A stretch of 61,412 nucleotides of DNA from Pseudomonadales bacterium. GTDB taxonomy: Bacteria; Pseudomonadota; Gammaproteobacteria; Pseudomonadales; JAHRWD01. The notes below the pieces were generated by a model, which was not told where the DNA came from, did no database searches, and was given only the letters and a program-made list of their open reading frames with translations. Positions 40,708 through 61,216 of the stretch are shown piece after piece; position 1 is the first letter of the stretch; each line of letters opens with the position of its first letter. The DNA lies in contig JAESUM010000093.1 of assembly GCA_016763075.1 (NCBI GenBank), positions 1 to 61,412 on the forward strand, written 5' to 3'. The translations under genes and the position numbers were made by a program.

Positions 40708-41427
40708 ATGAAGACTTCACGTATTGCTGCTTCGGCATTGGCAATGAGTGCGCTACTGCCGCTTACTGCATCTGCACAAGATCTGAGTGTTACCGTCACC
40801 AACCTTACTCACGGTATTTATTTCACGCCTGTACTTGTGGCTGCCCACGAAGACGGCACACACCTGTTTCAACAAGGCCAAGCCGCTTCAGCTAGCTTGC
40901 AAGCCATGGCCGAAGGTGGTTCTTTAGCGGGCTTGGTTACCGATGTTATCAATGCCAATGGAACCTATTCTGAAAACCCCGCAATGGGCATGTTGGCACC
41001 TACTGCCAGCACAACCACAACGTTAAATACTGACGGCACAAGCAATACGTATTTGTCTGTTGTTGCCATGATGTTGCCAACCAACGATGGCTTTATTGGC
41101 TTAGATTCAATTGCCATTCCTACTGAAGCTGGCACCTATACATTTTTGCTTAATGCTTACGATGCAGGCACAGAAGCGAATGACGAGCTTCTGAACCCTG
41201 GTGCTGGCGGCGCTCCTGGTGTTGCGGGCATTCCTGGTGCACCAGGCGGTGATACAGGAACCGGCGGAACCGGCGCGGCCGGTGCAGACAGCAATACAAT
41301 GGTTCATATTCATCGTGGCGCATTGGGTGATACCAACGCAACCGGTGGTACAAGCGATCTTGATAGCCGCATTCACCGCTGGTTGAACCCAGTGGCTAAA
41401 GTTGTGCTGACAGTCAGCAACCCATAA
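40708..41427 (+). CDS. Exported spondin-domain protein with collagen-like segment
   Basis: A 239-aa exported protein. A signal peptide ends near TASA|QD (residues 1-23). The mature part is a spondin-N-type fold (VTVTNLTHGIYFTPVLVAAHE, cited as VTNLTHGIYFTPVLVAAH; LQAMAEGG; later VHIHRGALGD and the RIHRWLNPVAKVVLTV end). Six consecutive Gly-X-Y triplets (residues 165-182, GAG GAP GVA GIP GAP GGD) form a collagen-like insert. It is upstream of a lipoprotein paralogue and preceded by a hairpin that occludes its start. Surface or periplasmic role; ligand unknown. Confidence 0.8.
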   Translation: MKTSRIAASALAMSALLPLTASAQDLSVTVTNLTHGIYFTPVLVAAHEDGTHLFQQGQAASASLQAMAEGGSLAGLVTDVINANGTYSENPAMGMLAPTASTTTTLNTDGTSNTYLSVVAMMLPTNDGFIGLDSIAIPTEAGTYTFLLNAYDAGTEANDELLNPGAGGAPGVAGIPGAPGGDTGTGGTGAAGADSNTMVHIHRGALGDTNATGGTSDLDSRIHRWLNPVAKVVLTVSNP

Positions 41428-41445
41428 CTATTGGAGGAAATGACG

Positions 41446-42144
41446 ATGAAGCCTATGATCAAAAAAAGTTTGGTTTCGGTATTAGCCCTCGGTTTGTTGG
41501 TGTTGGTGAGCGGTTGCGATAACGATAACGATAACGGAGCAGGGCGTTACGAAATCAGTGTAACGAACCTTAGCAATAATCAGCCTATGTCACCGCCTGC
41601 CTGGGCGTTTCATGATGAGGATTATATGGGCTGGGAAATTGGCAGTGCAGCGACAGCTGGCCTTGAAATACTTGCTGAAAGCGGCGATGCGAGTTCGTTT
41701 GTATCAGAAGCTAGGAACCATGCTGCAGTTTATACGCAGCGTGCTGCGGACGAAATGGTCTTGCCTGGGCAAACGCAAACGTACACCGTGGCCTTTCGCC
41801 ATGATGGTGGCTTACAATTCACGCTAGCCACTATGTTGGTCAATACCAATGACGCTTTTGTGGGGGTCAGCGGTGTTAAAATCAGTGATTTGGCGACGGG
41901 TGAAGAACGTACATATATGGCGCGTGCGTATGATGCCGGTACTGAAGAAAACCTTGAAACTGCGGCAACCATTCCTGGCCCTGCTGGTGGTGGCGAAGGG
42001 TTTAACGCAGCGCGAGAAGCATCGGATAAAGTCAGTATGCACAGTGGTGTAGTGACCAACTCTGATGGGCTTAGCAGCTCGGCGTTGGATCAATCACACC
42101 GGTTTGATAATCCGGTTGCACGGGTTGTTATTCGCCACTTATGA
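41446..42144 (+). CDS. Spondin-domain lipoprotein
   Basis: A 232-aa lipoprotein paralogue of the preceding gene. The lipobox is VSGC (Cys about residue 22) in LGLLVLVSGCDNDNDN, the start being the ATG at 41446, eight bases after GGAGG; an ATG at 41440 is too close to that site. The spondin-type body reads YEISVTNLSNNQPMSPPAWAFHDEDY, cited as ISVTNLSNNQPMSPPAWAF, and ends RFDNPVARVVIRHL. The Gly-rich insert is shorter (PGPAGGGEG). Nine Asp/Asn residues follow the lipidated Cys as a spacer. Confidence 0.8.
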   Translation: MKPMIKKSLVSVLALGLLVLVSGCDNDNDNGAGRYEISVTNLSNNQPMSPPAWAFHDEDYMGWEIGSAATAGLEILAESGDASSFVSEARNHAAVYTQRAADEMVLPGQTQTYTVAFRHDGGLQFTLATMLVNTNDAFVGVSGVKISDLATGEERTYMARAYDAGTEENLETAATIPGPAGGGEGFNAAREASDKVSMHSGVVTNSDGLSSSALDQSHRFDNPVARVVIRHL

Positions 42145-42317: not shown

Positions 42318-43034
42318 ATGAAATATAAAGTACTCATTGTCGAAGATAACGCCGAAATAGCCGATTTAGTGCAGATGCACCTGCGGGATATTCATTGCGA
42401 ATCTGATATTGCTGCAGATGGTGGTACAGGTGTTTCGATGTTCTTAGCCGGAAACTATGATCTTGTGGTGTTGGATCTCATGTTGCCGGTAGAAGATGGT
42501 CTTTCGGTTTGTCGTAAAATACGAGCCGAACAGGGCTATGTTCCAATACTGATGCTAACCGCAAAATCTACCGAGCTCGACCGCGTATTAGGGCTTGAAG
42601 TTGGCGCAGACGATTACCTTACAAAACCCTTTAGCATTCCAGAATTAATAGCACGTGTTAAAGCGTTGTTTCGCCGAGTAGAAGCGATGAGCGCAAAGCC
42701 TGCGCACGCTGTATTGGATGATCAGTTACAGTTTTCAGGCATGTCGATAGATAGCGCCAAACGCCATGTATTGATCGATAATAAAAATATTACCCTGACG
42801 GCGAAAGAGTTTGACCTGCTGCTGCATTTTGCCCGAAATCCGGGCCGTGTGTATTCTCGCGTTGACCTGCTTGACCAAGTATGGGGCTATCATCACGAAG
42901 GATACGAGCACACCGTTAACTCCCATATCAACCGTCTTCGCGCAAAAATAGAACAAGACCCAACCACGCCGGTTTATATCAAAACGGTGTGGGGTGTGGG
43001 TTATAAAGTTTCTGATGATATTGCGGATACCTAG
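42318..43034 (+). CDS. OmpR/PhoB-family response regulator
   Basis: A 238-aa two-component regulator. The receiver domain (1-115) has the phospho-acceptor Asp in DLVVLDLMLP, plus conserved Lys in DDYLTKPFS. A winged-helix DNA-binding domain ends at the typical TVWGVGYKVSD. It is 82 bases upstream of its histidine kinase. Spondin-domain genes lie directly upstream on the same strand and could be its targets. Confidence 0.93.
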   Translation: MKYKVLIVEDNAEIADLVQMHLRDIHCESDIAADGGTGVSMFLAGNYDLVVLDLMLPVEDGLSVCRKIRAEQGYVPILMLTAKSTELDRVLGLEVGADDYLTKPFSIPELIARVKALFRRVEAMSAKPAHAVLDDQLQFSGMSIDSAKRHVLIDNKNITLTAKEFDLLLHFARNPGRVYSRVDLLDQVWGYHHEGYEHTVNSHINRLRAKIEQDPTTPVYIKTVWGVGYKVSDDIADT

Positions 43035-43116
43035 GTTTTTACGAGCTGCCTTGTAATGACTAATAAGTATTAAACACCTTTATACATAATACATTTTGAT
43101 AAGCAGGTAATGAATC

Positions 43117-44622
43117 ATGTTACGCACACTGTATGCAAAACTAGCGATGGTCTTGTCGTTGCTGCTCATTGCAATTGGTGCAATTTACATGGCAGTCAGT
43201 CTTTCGGTCACTCAGCAGCATAATGACGAAGTGAGCCAACGGGTCAGCAGAGACCTGGCCAAAAACTTAATCATGGATCGCAATTTGGTGGCTCAAGGTC
43301 AGCTTGATGAAGGTGCTCTTCGGGACACTTTCAACATGTATATGGTGATCAACCCCAGTATCGAAATTTACCTGCTAGATCTAAAAGGGAAAATTTTATC
43401 CCACTCAGCAGACCCCGGGAAAGTGAAACGCACTGATGTGTCACTTGCACCCATTGACGATTTTTTGGAAAAAAACCTCTATCCATTATTGGGTGATGAC
43501 CCTCGTAGCCATGACCGGCAAAAAGCATTTTCTGTAACTCCGGTACCCAATGCGAAAAATCCTGAAGGTTATCTTTATATTGTATTACAGGGCGAAGAAT
43601 ACGATTCGATAAACGAAGCCGTAAGAGAAAGCTATTTATTGTGGCTCAGTAGTTGGGCTGTTGCCGGTAGTTTAATGTTTGGGTTGCTAGCTGGCTTACT
43701 ACTGTTTTATTTTTTAACGCGGCGCCTGCGCCATTTAACACAGATGATGGAGCGGTTTAAAAACTCTGACTTTAGTGAACATAAGAGTTACAGGAATAAA
43801 ATAGGTGATGATGCTTTGAGCGAGCATCATCAAAAAAATATAGATACCAAAAGCAATGATGAAATTGACCGTTTAGGTGATACCTTTGATGCAATGGCGC
43901 AGCGTATTATGGCCCAACTACAAGCCATTACAGAACAAGATAATAACCGCCGTGAATTAATCGCTCAGGTTTCCCACGATTTAAGGACACCATTGGCCTC
44001 ACTGCGAGGTTATTTAGAGACGTTAAAAATTAAATCAGGTGAATTATCTGAGGAACAGCAACAGCGTTATATTGATATTTCATTACGCCAAAGCGAGCAT
44101 TTAACGGATTTGGTTGGCGAGTTATTTGAACTGGCTACATTAGATGCAACGGAACAACTGGCGCATATCGAACCCTTTGCGGTTACCGAACTAGTACACG
44201 ATGTCTGTCAAAAATTCAGTTTAGATCTTGAAAATAAAAGAATTTCGCTTGAGGTCACATTGGAAGAAGGCATACCGTTTGTATTGGGTGATATTGCTTT
44301 AATTGAAAGGGTGCTAGAAAACTTGCTTGAAAATGCGATTCGTCATACACCGGAAGAAGGCGCAATAAACGTGGTGGTTAAAAAAGAAAATTCCCAGGTT
44401 TCAGTCTCGATCAGAGATACCGGTATCGGTATTAAAACCGAAGAGTTGCCGCGTATTTTTGATCGCTTTTATCAAGCTGAAAACGCACACCGCGAAGGGC
44501 AGCATGTGGGTTTAGGGTTGGCAATTGTAAAGCGTGTTTTAGAGCTTCACCAAAGTACTATTTCTGTTGATAGTAAGTCAGGCCAGGGTGCGGAATTTTA
44601 CTTTCATTTAAACGCGGCTTGA
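43117..44622 (+). CDS. Sensor histidine kinase with HAMP
   Basis: A 501-aa inner-membrane kinase. Two membrane segments (about 7-29 and 172-198) flank a periplasmic sensor domain. A HAMP linker follows (about 200-270) with an unusual Lys/Asp/His-rich stretch. The phospho-acceptor His is in VSHDLRTPLASLRG, the N box in ENLLENAIRHTPEEG, and the G boxes in RDTGIGIKTEELPRIF and GLGLAIVKR. Its partner is the upstream regulator. Input signal unknown. Confidence 0.93.
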   Translation: MLRTLYAKLAMVLSLLLIAIGAIYMAVSLSVTQQHNDEVSQRVSRDLAKNLIMDRNLVAQGQLDEGALRDTFNMYMVINPSIEIYLLDLKGKILSHSADPGKVKRTDVSLAPIDDFLEKNLYPLLGDDPRSHDRQKAFSVTPVPNAKNPEGYLYIVLQGEEYDSINEAVRESYLLWLSSWAVAGSLMFGLLAGLLLFYFLTRRLRHLTQMMERFKNSDFSEHKSYRNKIGDDALSEHHQKNIDTKSNDEIDRLGDTFDAMAQRIMAQLQAITEQDNNRRELIAQVSHDLRTPLASLRGYLETLKIKSGELSEEQQQRYIDISLRQSEHLTDLVGELFELATLDATEQLAHIEPFAVTELVHDVCQKFSLDLENKRISLEVTLEEGIPFVLGDIALIERVLENLLENAIRHTPEEGAINVVVKKENSQVSVSIRDTGIGIKTEELPRIFDRFYQAENAHREGQHVGLGLAIVKRVLELHQSTISVDSKSGQGAEFYFHLNAA

Positions 44623-44628
44623 TAGCTT

Positions 44629-44958
44629 TTAAACAGGTAAACGTATAGCAGCTAAAATTAAAAAAGCACCGTTTATCAGCGCAAGCATGATGGGAAATGT
44701 TGAGGGTTGTTCTTTTTTTATAATGCCGATTACAGCCAGTACAAAGCCCAAACACAGAAATGACAGCAGTGTAATAATGGCGATGGCCAAACCATTGTAA
44801 CCGTAGTAGTCGCCCTGTGGGTTAAGCAGTTTTATCGCAGCCATCGCGACAGGTAAACTCACTAAATTGCATACGGTAGCGGTGATTGAAAAAAACGGCT
44901 TTTTATCTGGTGTGACAGTATTATTTTTCATTGTTTTCATTGTTTTCATTGTTTTCAT
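44629..44958 (-). CDS. Small hypothetical membrane protein
   Basis: About 109 aa with three predicted membrane segments (FFSITATVCNLVSLPVAMAA, cited as FFSITATVCNLVSLPVA; LAIAIITLLSFLCLGFVLAVIG, cited as LLSFLCLGFVLAVIG; LALINGAFLILAA). Four ATGs at the N-terminus (44958, 44949, 44940, 44931) come from a 9-bp tandem repeat encoding Met-Lys-Thr; the TTG start at 45006 lies inside the hairpin terminator and is rejected. No family recognised. It converges with the kinase gene, six bases apart. Confidence 0.65.
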   Translation of the reverse strand: MKTMKTMKTMKNNTVTPDKKPFFSITATVCNLVSLPVAMAAIKLLNPQGDYYGYNGLAIAIITLLSFLCLGFVLAVIGIIKKEQPSTFPIMLALINGAFLILAAIRLPV

Positions 44959-44960
44959 TG
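44925..44960 (-). repeat. Four tandem 9-bp repeats at the start of a small membrane protein
   Basis: TTTTCATTG four times (minus-strand Met-Lys-Thr codons). Each unit supplies a start codon, so repeat-number change would keep frame and add or remove three residues. Confidence 0.9.
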
Positions 44961-44988
44961 TTGTATTTAAAAATCTGGATTTCTTAGT

Positions 44989-45018
44989 AAAAAGCCAGGG
45001 TTTCAACCCTGGCTTTTT
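44989..45018 (-). terminator. Terminator downstream of P450 gene 1
   Basis: A 13-bp stem AAAAAGCCAGGGT/ACCCTGGCTTTTT, loop TTCA (or nearly closed), ending 20 bases past the P450 stop. It can serve both strands. Confidence 0.88.
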
Positions 45019-45038: not shown

Positions 45039-46346
45039 CTACCAAGGGTGTACTTGAACAGGTAGATCAGCAAAGCCATTTACAAATGTCGAGTGACTAC
45101 GAACAGGCTCACCAACTACTTCTACGAAACGGAAGCGTTTCATGATTTCTTCCCATGCGATACGCAACTGCATTTCTGCTAAACGGTTACCCATGCAACG
45201 GTGAATACCAAAACCAAACGAGAGATGCTCGCGTGGACGTGCGCGATCAATGATGAAGTCATAAGGGTTGTCGATGGAATCTTCATCGCGGTTTCCTGAA
45301 ACATACCACATTACAACCAGTTCACCCTTCTTAATCTGCTTGCCAGCAAGCGTAGTGTCCTTAAGTGCTGTACGCGCCATGTGAGTTAGCGGTGTCTGCC
45401 AACGAATGATTTCAGGAACCATTTTAGGGATCAGATCAAGGTTGTCGCGCAATTTTTGATACTCTTCTGGGTTTTGGTTCAGTGTGTGCACACCACCAGA
45501 AAGTGAGTTACGAGTCGTATCGTTGCCGCCAACAATCAACAGCATCAAGTTGCCTAGGAATTCCATAGGCTGCAAGTTACGAGTCGCTTCGCCGTGAGCA
45601 AGCATGGAGATCAAATCATTGCTCGGTGGCGCGTTAACACGCTCATTCCACAGTTTGGTAAAAGCAGGTAAGCACTCTTCACTTAAGATACGGAACTGCT
45701 CTTCTTCGGACTCAACGATATCGTCGATACCTGGTCGTGATGTAGCTACATCGGACCAGTACGTCAGTTTATGGCGTTCTTCAAACGGGAAGTCGAAAAG
45801 AGTAGCCAGCATTTGTGTGGTTAACTCGATCGATACACGCTCAACCCAGTTAAAGGTTTCGCCAATTGGTAGTGCATCCAGAATACCTTCCATTCGTTCA
45901 CGAATAATAGGTTCCATCAATGCTAGGTTGGTGGGTGCAACTACGCCTTGAACAGTACGGCGCTGATTGCCGTGCTCAGGTTCATCCATTGCGATGAAGC
46001 TCGTGGTGCTTTGTAGCGCTTCACTTTGGTTGAAGATAGTAATTCGTTTGTCTGAAGAATAGGTCGCGTGGTCGGCTTCGACCGTCATGATGTCTTTGAA
46101 TTTAGTGACAGACCAGAACGGACCGTTGATGGAATCTTTACAGTAATGAACAGGGTCTTCTTTACGTAAACGGTCGAAAAAGCCCCACATGGTGCTGGTG
46201 TGGAACAACGCAGGTTGAGATACGTCGATTTCATCCAGCGGCACGCTCATTGGGTCGCGGCCATACATGTTGTTTGCAAGTGTTTCAGTTTGTTCGATGA
46301 TCTTCGCGGTTACGCCGCTCTTATCAAATACGGGTGAGCTACTCAT
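45039..46346 (-). CDS. Cytochrome P450, CYP153-like (copy 1)
   Basis: A 435-aa P450 of the CYP153 type, expected to hydroxylate terminal positions of alkanes or fatty-acid chains in the cytoplasm. I-helix GGNDTTRNS at residues 273-281, ExxR at Glu312-Arg315, heme loop FGFGIHRCMGNR with the heme ligand Cys384. Leading MSSSPVFDKSGVTAKIIEQ differs from its siblings. AGGA precedes the ATG. No ferredoxin or reductase is beside it, unlike classical CYP153 operons. It has a private upstream region with a perfect inverted repeat and three direct repeats. Confidence 0.9.
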   Translation of the reverse strand: MSSSPVFDKSGVTAKIIEQTETLANNMYGRDPMSVPLDEIDVSQPALFHTSTMWGFFDRLRKEDPVHYCKDSINGPFWSVTKFKDIMTVEADHATYSSDKRITIFNQSEALQSTTSFIAMDEPEHGNQRRTVQGVVAPTNLALMEPIIRERMEGILDALPIGETFNWVERVSIELTTQMLATLFDFPFEERHKLTYWSDVATSRPGIDDIVESEEEQFRILSEECLPAFTKLWNERVNAPPSNDLISMLAHGEATRNLQPMEFLGNLMLLIVGGNDTTRNSLSGGVHTLNQNPEEYQKLRDNLDLIPKMVPEIIRWQTPLTHMARTALKDTTLAGKQIKKGELVVMWYVSGNRDEDSIDNPYDFIIDRARPREHLSFGFGIHRCMGNRLAEMQLRIAWEEIMKRFRFVEVVGEPVRSHSTFVNGFADLPVQVHPW

Positions 46347-46390
46347 AATTCAAGGTCCTGTTAGAGGTTGTTATCAGACTCGAAGGTTTA

Positions 46391-46408
46391 GTATCAAAGG
46401 GTTGATAC
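46391..46408. promoter_or_regulatory. Perfect inverted repeat upstream of P450 copy 1
   Basis: GTATCAA-AGGG-TTGATAC, centred about 53 bases before the start. The form suits a dimeric repressor or activator site. Confidence 0.5.
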
Positions 46409-46532
46409 GCTTTAGCGTCAGTGTGCGAACAATCAGCTGATCCTTCATCTAACAATCCCTACTACACCGGCAGATCGAGATAATAATAGGTATGAAGGGT
46501 TTAATAAAGGATATAGATAGAAGGGTTTGATA
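46397..46532. repeat. Three AAGGGTT-type direct repeats upstream of P450 copy 1
   Basis: Related 11-13-base elements at 46397-46407 (AAGGGTTGATA), 46494-46506 (GAAGGGTTTAATA) and 46520-46532 (GAAGGGTTTGATA). The latter two are 26 bases apart, about 2.5 helical turns. The first overlaps the inverted repeat. Candidate regulator-binding sites. Confidence 0.45.
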
Positions 46533-46741
46533 TAAGCATGTGGCAACTACGAAGCTCCCATGGCCTGAGAAAGGCACTGGCGTCAAACCCAAAATGCTAC
46601 TCTCAGATAATTCAGCCTCATGATGACGGATAACGCGGTTGAATGGGGTGGGGCGGCGTAGTGCGGAGTAGTTCAGCCAGTGGGGCGAGTGGCGTACAGG
46701 GTGCAGGATGTTGGGGTTTATGACGTTGGGGTTTATGAAAA

Positions 46742-46776
46742 CATCAGCTCATGCGGAGTTACCGCATGAGCTGATG
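46742..46776 (-). terminator. Hairpin downstream of P450 gene 2
   Basis: Perfect 15-bp stem (46742-46756 with 46762-46776), loop AGTTA, 35 bases past the stop of copy 2. Lacks a clear T tract on the minus strand. Confidence 0.65.
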
Positions 46777-46810
46777 CAGGATCAAAATATGTTGCGGACT
46801 AAATTACGGC

Positions 46811-48118
46811 CTAAAGTGCGTGCAGCTTCACAGGCAATTCAGAAAACCCTTTAATAAAAGGCGAATGGCTTCGAACAGGCTCACCGACTACCTCAACAAA
46901 ACTAAAGCGTTTCATAATTTCTTCCCATGCGATTCGTATCTGCATTTCCGCAAGCCGGTTGCCCATGCAGCGGTGAATACCAAAACCAAAGGAAAGGTGA
47001 TGGCGGGGTTTTTCGCGGTCAATGATAAAGCTGTAAGGTTGGTCCACCTCATCTTCATCACGGTTACCCGATACATACCACATCACTAACAAGTCACCTT
47101 TTTTAATCTGCTTGCCGCCAAGCTCGGTGTCTTTAGTGGCGGTACGGGCCATGTGCGTAAGCGGTGTTTGCCAGCGAATAATTTCCGGAACCATTTTAGG
47201 TATTAGGTCTAAATTATCACGGAGTTTTTGATATTCGTCGGGGTTTTCATTGAGCGCCAATACACCGCCAGAAAGCGAGTTACGGGTGGTGTCGTTGCCA
47301 CCAATAATAAGCAGCATTAAGTTACCCAAAAATTCCATCGGCTGCATGTTACGAGTAGATTCGCCGTGAGCAAGCATCGAAATTAAGTCACTGCTGGGTG
47401 GCGCGTTTACCCGTTCGTTCCACAGTTTTGTGAAGGCCGGTAGGCACTCTTCAAACAGAACTGCAAACTGCTCTTCGTCGGTTTCGACTAAACCATCGGG
47501 CCCAGGCTGGGTGGTGGCAACATCGGACCAGTAGGTTAGTTTATGACGCTGATCAAATGGGAAATCAAACAGCGTTGCTAGCATTTGAGTGGTTAGCTCA
47601 ATAGAGACTTTATCTACCCAGTTAAAGGTTTCGCCAATTGGAAGTGCATCAAGTATGTCTGCCACTCGTTCACGGATAATAGGCTCGAGAACGGCCAAAT
47701 TACTCGGCGCAACAACGCCCTGCACGGTACGGCGTTGGTTGCCGTGCTCCGGCTCATCCATAGCAATAAAACTACTGGTATCGTTTAGCTTGCCCTTGCG
47801 TTCCAGAACGGTGATGCGTTTATCCGAAGAATAAGTAACATGGTCGGCTTCTACGGTCATGATGTCTTTATATTTTGTGACCGACCAATAAGGGCCGTTC
47901 TCAGAGCTTGCGCAATAGTGAACAGGCTCTTCCTTACGTAAGCGGTCAAAAAACCCCCACATGGTATTGGAATAAAAAAGATCTGCTTGGGATACGTCAA
48001 TCTCATCTAAAGGTACGCTGTAAGGGTCGCGACCATACATGCTGTTGGGTACAGAAGTACTTTGGCTTAAGCCCGTGGCGGCCGCATCGTTTTTATCAAA
48101 ATCCGGTGATTTGCTCAT
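46811..48118 (-). CDS. Cytochrome P450, CYP153-like (copy 2)
   Basis: A 435-aa CYP153-type P450 with the same I-helix GGNDTTRNS (273-281), Glu312-Arg315 and heme Cys384 in FGFGIHRCMGNR. N-terminus MSKSPDFDKNDAAATGLSQ differs from other copies; the catalytic core is nearly shared. AGGA precedes the ATG. Private upstream and downstream sequences indicate separate transcription. Expected role: terminal hydroxylation of hydrophobic chains; likely uses redox partners encoded elsewhere. Confidence 0.9.
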   Translation of the reverse strand: MSKSPDFDKNDAAATGLSQSTSVPNSMYGRDPYSVPLDEIDVSQADLFYSNTMWGFFDRLRKEEPVHYCASSENGPYWSVTKYKDIMTVEADHVTYSSDKRITVLERKGKLNDTSSFIAMDEPEHGNQRRTVQGVVAPSNLAVLEPIIRERVADILDALPIGETFNWVDKVSIELTTQMLATLFDFPFDQRHKLTYWSDVATTQPGPDGLVETDEEQFAVLFEECLPAFTKLWNERVNAPPSSDLISMLAHGESTRNMQPMEFLGNLMLLIIGGNDTTRNSLSGGVLALNENPDEYQKLRDNLDLIPKMVPEIIRWQTPLTHMARTATKDTELGGKQIKKGDLLVMWYVSGNRDEDEVDQPYSFIIDREKPRHHLSFGFGIHRCMGNRLAEMQIRIAWEEIMKRFSFVEVVGEPVRSHSPFIKGFSELPVKLHAL

Positions 48119-48767
48119 AGTAAATGTCCTGTTAAAAAAAGGTTTAGTCGGAACTGCTCTACTTTGTACGAACTTCAGAGGATAAATAAGGTAGGGCTCA
48201 GAGAATGCCGGAGCGCTGTGTAATAAAATCCAGGTTATCCACTATCGTATTACGGTAACTTATTGCTGCCGGTAACGTATTTAAAAATTGAATAGCTAAT
48301 ATTACGCCCCCGCCGAGAAAAAGTGACATCAATAGTGCATCAATAGTAAGTCGATTTTCGACTTTTTAAAAGGTTATGAACGGATTGTTTGGCAAAACAG
48401 GATTAAAACAACTGAATTTGTAACGAGTAATGAATAAATTACGCATTTATAGATTCGAAAGTTATAAGTATTTTTAAGGCGAGCCTACATATACGATAAC
48501 AGGCAGTTTGTTGTGGTGGAGGGGTGTTCGAAAGTAAATAGAGGATCACGGTAAACGAGATAATGTTTGAATCGTTGTATGTATAACGAACAAGGTAATC
48601 AGCGTGATTACTTACCCAGCGAAAGTGTTACGATGTTGATTTAAATCGCGAGTGGTGATGAGGCGACGGGATAAGAAATGCTTGAAATAAATCAATAAAT
48701 ACGGGTGTCGAGCGGTACCCATTGTTGCCGCTCGACACCCATAAAATTGAAGGTATTGCGTATTAAA
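48119..48767. other. Intergenic region between P450 copies 2 and 3
   Basis: 649 bases with no convincing gene. It contains the hairpin terminator of copy 3 (48703-48740), a tandem CATCAATAGT pair (48327-48336, 48338-48347), and a small AAGTCGA-TTT-TCGACTT hairpin followed by TTTT (48348-48366) that looks like a plus-strand terminator. Two direct CGGTAAC elements lie near 48250-48280, within reach of the copy 2 promoter. Composition is AT-rich compared with the genes. Confidence 0.6.
48703..48740 (-). terminator. Hairpin downstream of P450 gene 3
   Basis: Perfect 13-bp stem GGGTGTCGAGCGG/CCGCTCGACACCC, 12-base loop, ending 28 bases past the stop of copy 3. Confidence 0.75.
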
Positions 48768-50069
48768 CTACTTTGCGTGAAGCCGAACAGGAAGCTCAGA
48801 AAACCCTTTAATCATAGGTGAATGGTTGCGTATGGGGTCACCAACCACTTCAACATGATCGAATCGTTTCATGATCTCTTCCCATGCAATCCGTAGCTGC
48901 ATTTCTGCTAGGCGGTTGCCCATGCAGCGGTGTATGCCAAAACCAAAAGAAAGATGCTGGCGAGGTTTTGGGCGATCAATAATAAACTCGTAAGGGCTTT
49001 CGATTTCATCTTCATCTCGGTTTCCGGAGACATACCACATGACAACCAAGTCACCTTTTTTGATGTTTTTATCACCGATGGTGGTGTCTTTAAGCGCAGT
49101 ACGGGTCATATGCGTTAACGGTGTTTGCCAACGGATAATTTCGGGTACGAGCTTAGGAATGAGGTCGAGATTGTCGCGCAATTTTTGATATTGCTCCGGG
49201 AATTCATTCAATGCCAATACACCACCAGATAATGAATTACGGGTGGTATCATTACCACCCACAATCAGCAAAATCAGATTGCCCAAAAATTCCATCGGCT
49301 GCATATTACGAGTAGATTCGCCGTGCGCCAGCATCGAGATTAAATCAGTGCCTGGAGGCTGATTTACGCGCTCGTTCCACAGTTTAGTGAAAGCCGGTAA
49401 ACACTCCTCTGCCAAAATTCGGAATTGCTCTTCGTCGGTTTCAACCAATGCACCAGGCCCTGGTTGGGTGGTTGCTACATCCGACCAATAGGTTAAATTG
49501 TGGCGCTCCTCGAAGGGGAAATCAAACAAGGTCGCAAGCATTTGGGTGGTCAGTTCGATCGATACTTTGTCAACCCAGTTAAAAGTTTCGCCAATCGGTA
49601 GTGAGTCGAAAATAGCGGCGGCGCGTTCGCGGATGATGGGTTCTAAAAGGGCCAGGTTAGTGGGCGCAACAACGCCTTGCACGGTACGGCGTTGGTCGCC
49701 GTGTGCGGGCTCATCCATTCCAATAAAGCTAGAGGTTTTTTCTAGTTCGGCTTTGCGTTGCAGTAGGGTAATGCGATCTGCAGATGAAAACGTTTCGTGG
49801 TCGGCTTCAACCGCCATAATATCCCTGTATTTAGTGACCGACCAAAAAGGCCCAGCGTCGGATTCTTTACAAAAGTGAACCGGGTCTTCTTTGCGCAGGC
49901 GGTCAAAAAACCCCCACTGAGTATTCGAATAAAAAAGGTCTGGCTGAGATACATCAATTTCATCCAACGGCACGCTGTAAGGATCTCGGCCATACATGTT
50001 GTTAGCAACTGGGTTTCCGCGGCCATCGCCGATTGGAATGAAGTTGCTGGGGATGGGTGATTTACTCAT
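48768..50069 (-). CDS. Cytochrome P450, CYP153-like (copy 3)
   Basis: A 433-aa CYP153-type P450. I-helix GGNDTTRNS at 271-279, heme Cys382 in FGFGIHRCMGNR. It is two residues shorter than the others at the N-terminus (MSKSPIPSNFIPIGDGRGN) and has a distinct C-terminal segment with NHSPMIKGFSELP. AGGA lies before the ATG. An imperfect operator-like TGGGTG-GATG-CACCCA sits at 50163-50178. It is the most diverged N-terminus of the four. Substrate chain length may differ; unproven. Confidence 0.9.
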   Translation of the reverse strand: MSKSPIPSNFIPIGDGRGNPVANNMYGRDPYSVPLDEIDVSQPDLFYSNTQWGFFDRLRKEDPVHFCKESDAGPFWSVTKYRDIMAVEADHETFSSADRITLLQRKAELEKTSSFIGMDEPAHGDQRRTVQGVVAPTNLALLEPIIRERAAAIFDSLPIGETFNWVDKVSIELTTQMLATLFDFPFEERHNLTYWSDVATTQPGPGALVETDEEQFRILAEECLPAFTKLWNERVNQPPGTDLISMLAHGESTRNMQPMEFLGNLILLIVGGNDTTRNSLSGGVLALNEFPEQYQKLRDNLDLIPKLVPEIIRWQTPLTHMTRTALKDTTIGDKNIKKGDLVVMWYVSGNRDEDEIESPYEFIIDRPKPRQHLSFGFGIHRCMGNRLAEMQLRIAWEEIMKRFDHVEVVGDPIRNHSPMIKGFSELPVRLHAK

Positions 50070-50384
50070 AAGAAATTTCCTTTTACGTGATTGTTTAGCC
50101 GAGTAGGCGCTGTTTTATAATTGCTCAATGAATGACAGTAGATTATTTTTCAATTCTTTATCTGGGTGGATGCACCCAATAAGAATAGCCCAAACCATGG
50201 CATTGCCCCTGTGATCATAAAGGAGTCATGGCTAATCTTGCGAATTAATGGATAAACCGTTAGACGATTTTATTGTATCAAGTATGCAATTTAGAATTGG
50301 AGGATGTAAGTGGTTTTTGTGGGCAAAAAATGAAATTAAAAGAAGTGATGGTATTGGCGTAGCGAGCCATGAAATCAGGTGAAA

Positions 50385-50420
50385 AAAAGCTGGTATTGAA
50401 TAGACTCAACACCGGCTTTT
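50385..50420 (-). terminator. Terminator of P450 gene 4
   Basis: About 14 base pairs (AAAAGC-GGT-TTGA against TCAA-ACC-GCTTTT with one mismatch and one G-U) and minus-strand T tract, 85 bases past the stop of copy 4. Confidence 0.6.
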
Positions 50421-50428
50421 AATCTTAA

Positions 50429-50453
50429 GTTACCGGTTACCGGTTACCGGTTA
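50429..50453. repeat. Tandem 7-bp GTTACCG repeat
   Basis: GTTACCG three times plus GTTA, giving overlapping ACCGGT palindromes. It lies between the copy 4 terminator and stop. Could be slippage-prone or a binding element. Confidence 0.7.
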
Positions 50454-50504
50454 GCGCGTTAAAACGGTGTTTAACTCGCTTACTGACTGGTTACTTTTAT
50501 AACG

Positions 50505-51812
50505 CTATAAAGGGTGTACTCGAACGGGTAAATCAGAGAAACCTTTAATGAAAGTAGAGTGACTGCGAACCGGTTCGCCGACCACTTCAACTTTGCTAAA
50601 GCGTTTCATAATCTCTTCCCATGCGATACGCAACTGCATTTCGGCAAGTCGGTTTCCCATGCAGCGGTGAATGCCAAAACCGAATGAAAGGTGCTGTCGA
50701 GGACGATCGCGATCAACGATAAATTCGTAAGGGCGGTCAACATAGTCTGCATCACGATTGCCAGATACATACCACATAACAAGTAGGTCGCCTTTCTTGA
50801 TGTTCTTGCCACCAAGCGTGGTGTCTTTAAGCGCAGTTCGTGCCATATGAGTGAGCGGTGTTTGCCAGCGGATAATTTCAGGCACGAATTTTGGAATCAA
50901 GCTTACGTCATCACGCAGTTTTTGATACTGCTCTGGGTTTTCATTGAGCGCCAATACGCCACCAGAAAGTGAATTACGGGTGGTGTCGTTGCCGCCAATA
51001 ATCAGCAGCAGCAAGTTGCCCAAAAACTCCATTGGTTGCATGTTACGAGTCGACTCACCGTGAGCCAGCATAGAAATTAGATCATTGCCCGGTGGCTCGT
51101 TTACACGTTCGTTCCACAATTTTGTGAAAGCAGGTAAGCACTCTTCACTAAGGATGCGAAATTTTTCTGCGTCATCAGCAACCAGTCCATCAACTACAGG
51201 CATAGAGGTGGCTACGTCAGACCAGTAGGTTAACTTGTGACGTTCGTCGAAAGGGAAATCAAACAACGTTGCCAGCATTTGAGTGGTTAACTCGATAGAA
51301 ACAAGGTCTACCCAGTTGAAGGTTTCGCCTACCGGTAGCGAGTCTAGAATATCCGCTACACGTTCGCGAATAATAGGCTCAAGTAGCGCCAAGTTGGTAG
51401 GAGCAACTACACCTTGAACGGTACGGCGTTGGTTGCCGTGCTCAGGTTCATCCATGGCAATAAAGCTGGATGTATTGTTGAGTTCGCCTTCACGTTTCAT
51501 GACCGAAATACGCTCAGCAGATGAGAAAATCTCATGCTTGCTTTCGACTTCCATAATGTCTTTGAATTTAGTGACGGACCAATAAGGGCCGTTTTCAGAC
51601 TCTTTACAGTAGTGCACAGGCTCTTCGTCGCGTAGGCGGTCAAAAAATCCCCACATGGTGTTGGTGTGAAAAAGCGCCGCTTGGGAAACATCCATCTCTT
51701 CAAGTGGAATGCTGTAGGGGTCTCGACCGTACATGTTGTTTTTTATCGACGCAGTTTGTTCGAGGATTTTATCCAGTACACCGCTTTTATCAAAAGCTAA
51801 TGATTTGCTCAT
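50505..51812 (-). CDS. Cytochrome P450, CYP153-like (copy 4)
   Basis: A 435-aa CYP153-type P450. Same I-helix, ExxR and heme Cys384 as copy 1. Its N-terminus MSKSLAFDKSGVLDKILEQT and C-terminal SHSTFIKGFSDLPVRVHPL are closest to copy 1, hinting at a copy 1/copy 4 pair from a duplication. AGGA precedes the ATG. A 7-bp inverted repeat (ATGCTGC/GCAGCAT, 51843-51849 with 51864-51870) lies about 31 bases upstream. Confidence 0.9.
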   Translation of the reverse strand: MSKSLAFDKSGVLDKILEQTASIKNNMYGRDPYSIPLEEMDVSQAALFHTNTMWGFFDRLRDEEPVHYCKESENGPYWSVTKFKDIMEVESKHEIFSSAERISVMKREGELNNTSSFIAMDEPEHGNQRRTVQGVVAPTNLALLEPIIRERVADILDSLPVGETFNWVDLVSIELTTQMLATLFDFPFDERHKLTYWSDVATSMPVVDGLVADDAEKFRILSEECLPAFTKLWNERVNEPPGNDLISMLAHGESTRNMQPMEFLGNLLLLIIGGNDTTRNSLSGGVLALNENPEQYQKLRDDVSLIPKFVPEIIRWQTPLTHMARTALKDTTLGGKNIKKGDLLVMWYVSGNRDADYVDRPYEFIVDRDRPRQHLSFGFGIHRCMGNRLAEMQLRIAWEEIMKRFSKVEVVGEPVRSHSTFIKGFSDLPVRVHPL

Positions 51813-52261
51813 CGTTAATTTCCTTATAAGTTATTGATTATTATGCTGCCCGGTTGCGCTGACGCAGCATCACAGGGCCAAATGGGGATGGTTTAGTGTT
51901 TTCAGCCAGTGCCTGAATAAACTTCATGCGCGCCACGCTCGGCTGAAAATAGTAATGCGTTTTTAGTTACTCTGAATTAGCTATTCGTACTACAACGATG
52001 ACCGATACGAGAACATCCACAACCAATAACTGTAAACCCTGCAGCGCTATTTATAAAGGCTTCATGGTCTTATCAGCATAAATGAGCAGAAGGATTCAGG
52101 GATAGAAGTTAGCGGCGCAGCACAACTGCACGCCACTCAAATGGAGTTAAAAACCGCAATTCAAAAAATTGTGTTAATCAACCTGAATGGATTGAAAAAG
52201 CGCATGCTAGTTGCCGGTTTGACCATTGATTTAGGGGCAAGCGCAGCTAAAAGGTCATGGG
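51813..52261. other. Intergenic region upstream of P450 copy 4
   Basis: 449 bases. It holds the ATGCTGC/GCAGCAT inverted repeat of copy 4 and, near 51890, a GGTTTAGT also seen before copies 1 and 2. The rest shows no gene. The stop of the dioxygenase gene lies at its far end without a clear terminator. Confidence 0.6.
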
Positions 52262-53053
52262 TTAATCAAACTGATAAGCCGACACGACAGCACCCATTAC
52301 ACGGTCGCTAAAAATCATGTTTGCGCCGCCTTTAGCGGCACCTGCCGCCACCATCAATGGCAGCAAATGTTCTTCTCGGGGGTGGGCTTGTAGCGCTGAG
52401 GGTGCCCCTGCCCATTGCATGAGTTGAGCGTCTCTTTGATCCGCTGGAAGCTGGCAGGTTTTGCTGAGCCATTGATCAAACTGGTCCGAATGACCATCGC
52501 AGTGGCCGGTTTGCAGTAACCCCATATTATGAAAGCTCATGCCGCTGCCAATGATTAGCACATCTTGCTCACGTAGTGGTGCCAGCGCTTCTCCCAGTGA
52601 GATATGCGCGCGTGGGTCAAGGCTGGAATTCAGCGACAGTTGGAGCACCGGAATATCTGCATCTGGGTAGATCAGTTTGAAGGGAATAAATACGCCATGG
52701 TCCAACCCGCGTACGCTGTCTTGTTTGCAGGCAATACCGGCTTGCTCCAACAATTGCTGCACTTGTTGTGCAATGTGCGGTGCGCCAGGGGCAGGGTAGG
52801 TGATTTGATAGGTATGCTCGGGAAAGCCGAAGTAATCGTAAATTAAAGGCGGATTTGCATGGCTGCCAACACTGACCACAGACTCTTCCCAGTGTGCTGA
52901 AATCACTAAAATAGCAGTGGGTTTGTTGGGCAATGTAGCGCCAAGTTCACCGAGCCATTGCGCCATTTTGTGCCAAGTATCCGCTGGCCCCATGTTCCAA
53001 TCCATAAAAAAACATGGCCCGCCGCCGTGGGGAATGTAAATGCTGGGTAACAT
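52262..53053 (-). CDS. LigB/DODA-type extradiol dioxygenase
   Basis: Non-heme, metal-dependent class III dioxygenase of the 4,5-DOPA type, about 263 aa. The start at 53053 follows AAGGAG; a further upstream frame is unsupported. Metal and catalytic residues are in YIPHGGGPCFF, VISAHWEESV, and FHNMGLLQTGHCDGHSDQ, cited as SFHNMGLLQTGHCDG. Substrate could be a catechol-like ring or DOPA analogue. It may relate to aromatic side products; no other ring-cleavage gene is visible here. Confidence 0.87.
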   Translation of the reverse strand: MLPSIYIPHGGGPCFFMDWNMGPADTWHKMAQWLGELGATLPNKPTAILVISAHWEESVVSVGSHANPPLIYDYFGFPEHTYQITYPAPGAPHIAQQVQQLLEQAGIACKQDSVRGLDHGVFIPFKLIYPDADIPVLQLSLNSSLDPRAHISLGEALAPLREQDVLIIGSGMSFHNMGLLQTGHCDGHSDQFDQWLSKTCQLPADQRDAQLMQWAGAPSALQAHPREEHLLPLMVAAGAAKGGANMIFSDRVMGAVVSAYQFD

Positions 53054-53167
53054 ATTTTCTCCTTGAAAATAAATGCACAGGTGTTGGGGGCAGCGAAGCA
53101 ATACTCGCCAAGACACTCGTCACCAAAGCACCGCTGAGCAGTGCTTTGTATTGCGATTAATCAGTGT

Positions 53168-59794: not shown

Positions 59795-61216
59795 CTAAAG
59801 CCTATCTGCAGGGCTTTGCACTGGCGGCATACCCGGCCGGTTCAACACATGGGTGTAAATCATCGTCGTCGACACATCGGCATGACCCAGTAACTCCTGC
59901 ACCGTACGGATATCCGTACCCGTCTCTAACAAATGCGTCGCAAAGGAATGGCGCAGCGCGTGGCTATTCACCTGCTTGGGAATAGCCGCAAGAGTCGCCC
60001 CTTTTTTGATGGCTTTTTGCAAGGAGTTTTCATGTAAATGATGGCGTCGTGTCACCCCGCTGCGCGGGTCACGAGAAAGCCGTGACGAAGGGAAAACATA
60101 CTGCCAAGCCCACTCCTTCGCAGCATTAGGATATTTTTTGTCCAGCGCATGGGGTAGAAATACCTCCCCCCGCCCCTCGCCAAGGGACTCATCCTTCAAA
60201 TCACTATCATGCAAAGCCTTAACACCCACTAAATGCGCGTGCAAAACTTTACTATAACGCTGTGGTAAAGGCACAACGCGGTCTTTCTTACCCTTGCCAT
60301 CGCGCACCGTCAACTGTGAATAATGAAAATCCACATCTTTAACCCGCAAGCGTATGCACTCCATCAACCGCATACCGCTGCCATACATCAGCCCCGCCAT
60401 TAAGAGATAAACCCCCGACATATTATCGAGCAAAGCCTTCATTTCGAGGGGCGACAACACAACAGGCAAACGTCGCGAACGTTTCGCTCGGGCAAACTCC
60501 ATACCTTCAAGCGGCCGCTGCAACACCTCCCGAAAGAAAAATGCAATGGACGTTAAAGCAAGACTTTGCGTGCTGGGGCTAACATTACGGCGAAGCGCCA
60601 AGTCCGACAGAAAATTTTCTACTTCTGCCGCACCCATGTGATCAACTGGCTTATTCTTTGTAGAACGAAACAAACGCTCGACCCAATGGACATAGGTTTG
60701 CTCGGTGCGAATGGAAAAATGACGCAAGCGGATTGCGTTAACTAACGCTTGAATGGATGGCGCATATTCAGCACCGAGTGGCGCTACGCGAGAATTGTTG
60801 CGTAATTGTCCGTGAATACTGGCCCTAGCAATGGTCGGATGGTCGATATCAAGCGCTTTAGAAGATGCCTTAAAGTAAGCCCAGTCAATGTCATTTAACC
60901 AGGCAGGTTGTAAAACATCCGCGAAATAGATCTCCAGCGCCTCCACACATTGGATGAACTGCCAACCCTCTAACGACGAATCTGCACCACGCAAGCGCAG
61001 GTAGCTCTTCACCTCATCGCCATGAACGGCAGCTAAAGAAGTACCCTCTATTTTCAAATGTGAAATAAAAGCTTTTAACTGACGTACATACCATTGGCGA
61101 GAGGCTTCAGGTACATTTCTACCTAGCATGGCTGTTAAGTACGACTGCCAGCCGGAATTAGTGGAATGGCTAGCATTTTCTTTCGGATTTTTAATGGCTT
61201 GTTCGTTTTTAGGCAT
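59795..61216 (-). CDS. Integron-type tyrosine integrase with N-terminal extension
   Basis: A 473-aa tyrosine recombinase of the integron-integrase kind. Catalytic residues: Arg283 ([12 protein letters not shown]), a lysine near 308, His419, Arg422 ([13 protein letters not shown]), His445 ([14 protein letters not shown]) and Tyr454. The IntI-specific insert is visible at about 354-392 with [21 protein letters not shown], cited as [18 protein letters not shown], and [14 protein letters not shown]. Residues 158-260 hold the usual core-binding domain; before it are about 150 extra residues that themselves resemble a core-binding domain. It has no obvious ribosome site; a 19-bp hairpin lies just before the ATG. 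The intI stop sits in the lyase fragment. Confidence 0.87.

Follow-up and report, generated by a model that had tools for sequence, protein, structure and literature searches.

Positions 1 to 61,412 of contig JAESUM010000093.1 of a Pseudomonadales bacterium (GenBank assembly GCA_016763075.1), referred to here as the window, carry an array of four cytochrome P450 genes between positions 45039 and 51812. All four are intact CYP153A-type genes on the minus strand with zero internal stops, and their order of transcription is D, C, B, A. The sole other genome of the genus returned by our searches (G001) is called the congener below.

Gene A, 45039–46346, minus strand: CYP153A-type P450 of 435 amino acids; its orthologue in the congener occupies the matching locus and shares 82% identity (support 91/87)
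Gene B, 46811–48118, minus strand: CYP153A-type P450 of 435 amino acids; its orthologue in the congener occupies the matching locus and shares 89% identity (support 97/93)
Gene C, 48768–50069, minus strand: CYP153A-type P450 of 433 amino acids; it lies outside the B pair (99/98) and is without a counterpart in the congener's locus
Gene D, 50505–51812, minus strand: CYP153A-type P450 of 435 amino acids; it lies inside a clade of six and is without a counterpart in the congener's locus

The four proteins are 76–81% identical in pairwise comparison. The gaps upstream of A, B, C and D measure 464, 649, 435 and 449 bases, respectively, that of D being taken to a LigB-like gene. A P450 is marked by its heme-thiolate loop, the ExxR motif and the acid–alcohol pair of the I helix; GGNDTTRNS, ExxR (as EIIR) and FGFGIHRCMGNR are present in 4/4 of the window P450s. 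A first-pass annotation of the same DNA had described four paralogues of 433–435 residues that share these motifs, diverge in about their first 28 residues and each have an upstream region of 400–650 bases. The measurements bear this out, including the divergent N-terminus, where 22 of the first 30 positions vary among the four proteins against 123 of 405 elsewhere.

Membership of CYP153 is supported by identity, tree position and motifs. Under the P450 naming rule, identity above 40% to named members assigns a protein to a family and identity above 55% to a subfamily. Proteins A–D are 60.1–61.3% identical to CYP153A7 over 397–398 columns and 58–62% identical to 7ant and 6hqg; against solved structures, gene B scored 569 bits with 7ant, 545 bits with CYP153A7 (PDB 3rwl, deposited as an alkane hydroxylase) and 377 bits with CYP153D17. 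In a quick tree of 135 rows, A–D grouped with CYP153A7, 7ant and 6hqg, and a branch of length 2.6 with 100% support parted off three P450 rows of 32–35% identity; one row (L050, about 36% identity, with an end branch of 2.24) was probably misplaced inside the group, and the program gave a warning of long branches meeting. Identity to CYP153A7 above the subfamily mark, taken with this tree position, supports the CYP153 assignment that the first-pass annotation had made. No CYP153 model was among the NCBIfam matches, the best of which (SolI, 439–459 bits against a cut-off of 850) was too low to be used.

The source genome is a draft of 2.65 Mb in 95 contigs, 95.33% complete. Pfam finds eleven P450 genes in it, and a search with gene B returns eleven CYP153-like matches at the same places with at least 63% identity: four on the window contig (C79), four on contig C5 and one each on C38, C49 and C72. 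No Fer2 match and no ferredoxin reductase match was found on the window contig, as the earlier remark that no redox genes stand beside the array had it. Contig C5 carries, in order, two MaoC-type proteins, a reductase, a CYP153, a ferredoxin, three CYP153 genes and the contig end. Its reductase is a flavin adenine dinucleotide (FAD) reductase of 401 amino acids whose nearest PDB chains are of the putidaredoxin-reductase type, and its ferredoxin, of 110 amino acids and putidaredoxin type, is nearest to PDB ferredoxins and putidaredoxin. The redox partners were suspected to be remote, and as genes both were located here, beside four sister CYP153s. The 2Fe–2S ferredoxin and FAD reductase of a class I three-component system are thus both available in the genome, on C5, and the clustering of such genes with the P450 is absent from the window array. 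Two small MaoC/FAS1-dehydratase-type proteins stand directly ahead of the reductase in both genus members (L012:6956–7879 and L131:16374–17297; families tested only for L012).

Across the genome there were five Fer2 matches (C9, C55, C67, C5 and C56) and three reductase matches (C5, C40 and C80). A search with the C5 reductase itself gave two other matches, both weak (31% and 33% identity, in frames of 874 and 482 amino acids). The other Fer2 proteins are an ISC ferredoxin (185.6 bits against an NCBIfam cut-off of 132.1), NqrF (678 bits against 295) and, both below their NCBIfam cut-offs, a 325-residue fused iron–sulfur/flavin reductase on C9 and a 159-residue small subunit of the molybdenum-hydroxylase kind. 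Because one putidaredoxin-type ferredoxin and one matching reductase were found, a single dedicated pair for all eleven P450s is the simplest interpretation, short of proof, and we infer that the C5 pair serves the window P450s.

From a larger group, 390 Pseudomonadales genomes of at least 80% completeness were drawn, and 108 of these had a CYP153-like match at 1e-100; only four candidates were scored per genome, so the counts of this survey are lower bounds. Fourteen genomes filled all four candidates; 13 of them, along with G130, were recounted, and a separate count gave 6 for G039. The full recount of 14 genomes gave 11, 11, 10, 9, 8, 7, 7, 6, 6, 6, 6, 5, 5 and 3 CYP153 genes, and the two genus members have the highest numbers found among the 390 genomes under this lower-bound counting. 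CYP153 genes in tandem are found elsewhere too, two or more lying at 13 of 79 loci, among which L051 and L052 are the congener's own record and L106 is a pair 4.3 kb apart on opposite strands. Redox neighbours were sought within 5 kb on either side at the 47 loci with at least 4 kb of sequence on both sides of the CYP153, some of which share a genome (the other 32 of the 79 were omitted for short flanks). A putidaredoxin-type ferredoxin lay that close at 14/47 loci and a reductase at 4/47, in a sample made up mostly of nearer kin of gene B, since gene-B patterns were used to find it. Lone CYP153 genes are the commoner case in this sample, and redox clustering seems no strict mark of the family; the first-pass statement that CYP153 genes usually travel with both partners does not hold here. 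One locus, L124, is on a record titled as a metagenome-assembled genome (MAG) of Klebsiella pneumoniae; it groups with gamma- and alphaproteobacterial MAG rows, and the record is therefore probably misnamed or mis-binned.

The congener also has eleven CYP153 genes. Its locus matching the window holds two of them, ordered as A and B are and adjoining the same two-component system; over the 20 kb compared, synteny is lost upstream of B, the congener having other genes there. A careful 29-row tree gives 9/11 of the genes a one-to-one partner in the congener. The A pair is not starred, and seven others besides A and B have 98–100 support by bootstrap. Gene D has no settled place in its clade of six (100/98). 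Forcing A–D into one clade costs 73 log-likelihood units and is rejected (P = 1.5e-6, approximately unbiased test). From the pairings of A and B and the position of C outside the B pair, the ancestor of the genus probably had at least three of the four array genes, and the congener then lost gene C and probably gene D as well. Judged from this tree, the array is old, not recent.

Synonymous differences among A–D amount to 0.67–0.75 per site over the six pairs and are saturated, against 0.079–0.095 non-synonymous differences per site in the core, which is under purifying selection. Variation is uneven along the proteins. Residues 92–117 vary at 17 of 26 positions (7 of 405 windows are as high) and residues 197–222 at 15 of 26 (23 of 405), against 2 of 13 in the I-helix stretch (268–280) and 1 of 9 in residues 318–326, and the heme loop is nearly invariant. 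On an AlphaFold model (mean predicted local distance difference test score 86.5, poor only at residues 1–22 and 378–381), which was used solely for helix limits, residues 1–30 form a disordered start, 92–117 the loop between helices B and C, and 197–222 run from late helix F into early helix G. Diversification is located in substrate-access parts, with no pointer in it to chain length, although the first-pass annotation had suggested a possible chain-length toolkit for alkanes or fatty acids.

Each of the four genes is followed by a hairpin, as the first-pass annotation had stated (44989, 46742, 48703 and 50385); all four are real, the last two with starts near 48700 and 50392, and 0/200 shuffles folded as well as the native sequence in each case.

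Hairpin after gene A, 44989–45018, minus strand: five T on the P450 strand, z −5.8
Hairpin after gene B, 46742–46776, minus strand: perfect arms of 15 base pairs, four T after the stem, z −8.9
Hairpin after gene C, 48700–48743, minus strand: 16-base-pair arms, 94% complementary, weak broken T tail, z −8.4
Hairpin after gene D, 50392–50413, minus strand: seven T, z −5.8

The hairpin after gene A is symmetric and so could serve both directions. A consensus terminator scan gave no excess over chance (8 found against 7.4 expected) and listed 44989 for the plus strand only. The sigma-54 pattern matched 42 times in the window against 43 expected and zero times in the gaps upstream of A–D, and Rfam at gathering scores returned two tRNAs only. 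Searched singly for repeats, the gaps contain short two- and three-copy families, hairpins and some imperfect inverted repeats; no motif common to all four was seen in these single searches.

We then compared the sequence ahead of the four genes and of the two congener orthologues, taking 300 bases per gene and omitting the last 14, so that 286 bases entered for each of six regions, with 300 shuffles per comparison.

Upstream region of A, 46347–46646, minus strand: matches that of its orthologue
Upstream region of B, 48119–48418, minus strand: matches that of its orthologue to about −280
Upstream region of C, 50070–50369, minus strand: resembles that of B weakly at best (5/300 shuffles)
Upstream region of D, 51813–52112, minus strand: no clear likeness to the other regions

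The two orthologous pairs scored 83 (shuffled maximum 41) and 169 (shuffled maximum 38), and 0/300 shuffles reached either score. For the remaining 13 pairs, between 5 and 278 of 300 shuffles did as well, B with C having the fewest; the region of C also bears a weak likeness to that of the congener's A-type gene (13/300). An alignment of the six regions had nothing clear in common beyond the ribosome-binding stretch. As a control, ten other gene pairs were compared, nine of them unclean because their 300-base regions are partly or wholly coding. The sole clean pair, another P450 (C5_2), gave no match (28 against a shuffled maximum of 34), nor did C5_1 (21 against 37); matches were obtained for C49 (45 against 34), C72 (198 against 37) and C38 (148 against 41), as well as for C5_3, C5_4, the reductase, the response regulator and the kinase. 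Conserved sequence before A and B, when synonymous sites within the genes are saturated, suggests that these upstream regions are functional; C and D lack an orthologue for such a comparison. The result agrees with separate control of A–D. With their gaps, hairpins and unrelated upstream regions, the four genes are probably transcribed one by one. The four separate transcription units proposed in the first-pass annotation have these features on their side, two of the upstream regions matching those of orthologues; the support is indirect, and no promoter was identified in the gaps.

Together, these results point to old, diverged CYP153 hydroxylases under separate regulation, with functions divided among them and a common electron supply, a reading we consider likely. 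The four would be CYP153A monooxygenases, each binding heme through its conserved loop and each hydroxylating an aliphatic substrate, probably at or near the chain end. Electrons from NAD(P)H would pass to the reductase of C5, from it to the C5 ferredoxin and on to the P450s, all eleven of which would draw on this one pair. The product alcohols may feed the many acyl-CoA dehydrogenases of the cell (25 matches in 2.65 Mb, 23 over the cut-off). That the enzymes hydroxylate chains, and that each copy takes a different substrate, we infer from family and divergence. A broader proposal is decidedly more tentative, and we regard it as doubtful: that the genus relies on a hub-and-spoke oxidation system in which eleven separately regulated CYP153s, with no other P450 in the genome, depend on a single ferredoxin and a single reductase, take the place of AlkB altogether and owe to their B–C loop and F–G region a tuning to a range of lipids that are perhaps not petroleum alkanes.

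Several observations weigh against the shared-supply reading or parts of it. Electrons might also come from the fused reductase on C9, and the second CYP153 cluster of the congener (contig C9 of that genome, L131) combines six CYP153s and one reductase with two ferredoxins. Contig C5 ends 166 bases past its last P450 match, and in a draft of 95 contigs further partners may be unseen. The limits 92–117 and 197–222 were set after the variation had been seen, though they fit the B–C loop and F–G region of the later model; residues 419–426, variable at 5 of 8 positions, are ordinary, as 60 of 405 windows equal them. Gene A and its orthologue differ in the B–C region by 0.279 non-synonymous changes per site, as much as paralogues do, so that rapid divergence there does not by itself imply a different substrate. 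Two findings bear on separate control: a good T-run follows only A and D on the P450 strand, so the hairpins of B and C are not textbook terminators, and a consensus sigma-70 promoter scan stayed below chance (6 against 13.7 expected), with no minus-strand match in the P450 upstream gaps. Finally, no FadL match and no FA_desaturase match was found in this genome, FA_desaturase being the Pfam family of AlkB, so that these searches brought up no other hallmark of hydrocarbon use. FadL was likewise without a match in the congener and in G022, G249 and G340, and had six matches in G021; the congener has one FA_desaturase match, a frame of 318 amino acids.

The transcription findings would suit a single operon in which read-through joins A–D and the hairpins are mere attenuators or 3′ ends, as would the common strand and the same order of the two genes in the congener. 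We think such an operon improbable given the gaps of several hundred bases with a strong hairpin after every gene, the likeness of the sequences ahead of A and B to their orthologous counterparts despite saturated synonymous sites, and the closer packing of three P450s in the C5 cluster. Nor is it likely that the four copies perform the same reaction and are kept for more enzyme. The near invariance of the I-helix stretch, residues 318–326 and the heme loop would allow it, and gene dosage has been proposed for multi-copy degradation genes in the accessible part of PMC13410759 (2026). Dosage copies are expected to stay alike, however, so the age and divergence of A–D count against dosage: most of the genes have been kept as separate orthologous lines in two species, the largest differences fall in the N-terminus and the substrate-access parts, and the upstream regions share no clear sequence.

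Harder to set aside is the idea that the substrates are neither n-alkanes nor fatty acids but lipids of a different class, for instance branched isoprenoids, terpenes or cyclic compounds. The missing FadL and FA_desaturase matches are in its favour, and the available part of PMC6850023 describes CYP153s of one strain that differ: the P450-3 of Alcanivorax borkumensis lacked expression on n-C14 and is favoured on pristane, P450-1 and P450-2 being up on n-C14 and also on pristane, and two of the five CYP153s of Sphingomonas HXN200 were without affinity for C5–C10 alkanes. Nothing in the window names such a substrate, however, and the nearest named structure, CYP153A7, was deposited as an alkane hydroxylase; we regard this alternative as possible but somewhat unlikely. 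A recent local amplification in this species only, which four copies here against two in the congener might suggest, is very improbable indeed. A and B have congener orthologues, C splits off before the B pair, and the tree rejects a four-gene clade, unless gene conversion misled it. Gene conversion was itself examined and set aside: third-position identity between paralogues is 33–68% in 60-codon windows, with no stretch near identity.

On the reading of divergent hydroxylases with a shared supply, the array would be a natural set of related enzymes with the same core and varied access loops, long kept in a small genome. As such it is good material for finding the residues that set the substrate range of CYP153s and the number of P450s that one ferredoxin can serve.

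Other features of the window and its surroundings were recorded as follows.

Spondin_N genes, 40708–42144, plus strand: two adjoining genes with this domain
Response regulator and histidine kinase, 42318–44622, plus strand: run toward the array from the opposite side; the congener keeps both in place, at 84% and 79% identity
Tandem repeat, 44925–44962: 4.2 perfect head-to-tail copies of the 9-base unit TTTTCATTG, close to where a small minus-strand open reading frame (44629–45006) starts
LigB-type dioxygenase gene, 52262–53116, minus strand: directly upstream of the array on the same strand, without a counterpart in the 20-kb stretch of the congener
Integron integrase gene, 59795–61216, minus strand: near the right end of the window; matches TIGR02249 (430 bits; cut-off 265) and is extended at the N-terminus by about 150 residues

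Among known systems, the closest in sequence are CYP153A7, 7ant and 6hqg, to which the window P450s are 58–62% identical over about 400 columns with the same I-helix and heme motifs; they differ from these in the N-terminus, B–C loop and F–G region and in forming a tandem array without adjoining redox genes. Clusters of three to six tandem CYP153s on one strand, like the window array, occur in Rhodobiaceae and other Alphaproteobacteria (L078, L084, L097, L099 and L116) and at L131 of the congener, but these carry one or two ferredoxin genes and the window array none. The A. borkumensis strain resembles the present genome in having several CYP153s, there with differing expression and partly from an operon with ferredoxin and reductase, as far as the accessible text of PMC6850023 describes it; it has three copies, plus AlkB and AlmA, against eleven here. 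In the portion of PMC13410759 at hand, cyp153 duplication and transfer are reported for HTCC2089-lineage and other genomes, with paralogues of different docking profiles. The multi-copy CYP153s with divergent predicted substrates described there for the HTCC2089 lineage, Sphingomonadales and Halieaceae resemble the present set; a Halieaceae genome has five cyp153 genes against eleven, and neither the layout of arrays nor shared redox partners come up in that portion. The 2021 Gammaproteobacteria survey of PMC7998510 gives, in the excerpt available, six as the highest P450 count for any genome it covered, again against eleven, and CYP153 in place of AlkB is described for Deepwater Horizon Bermanella in the available part of PMC11409719. 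Copy number of alkane hydroxylases is a subject of PMC9535955 and PMC10654063, and substrate-site residues of CYP153A33, not used further here, of PMC8764613, in the parts accessible of each. Our searches of open-licence papers turned up no description of a genome with eleven CYP153 genes. Duplication of CYP153 has been published before; what is notable in this genome is the copy number, together with an array that stands without redox genes.

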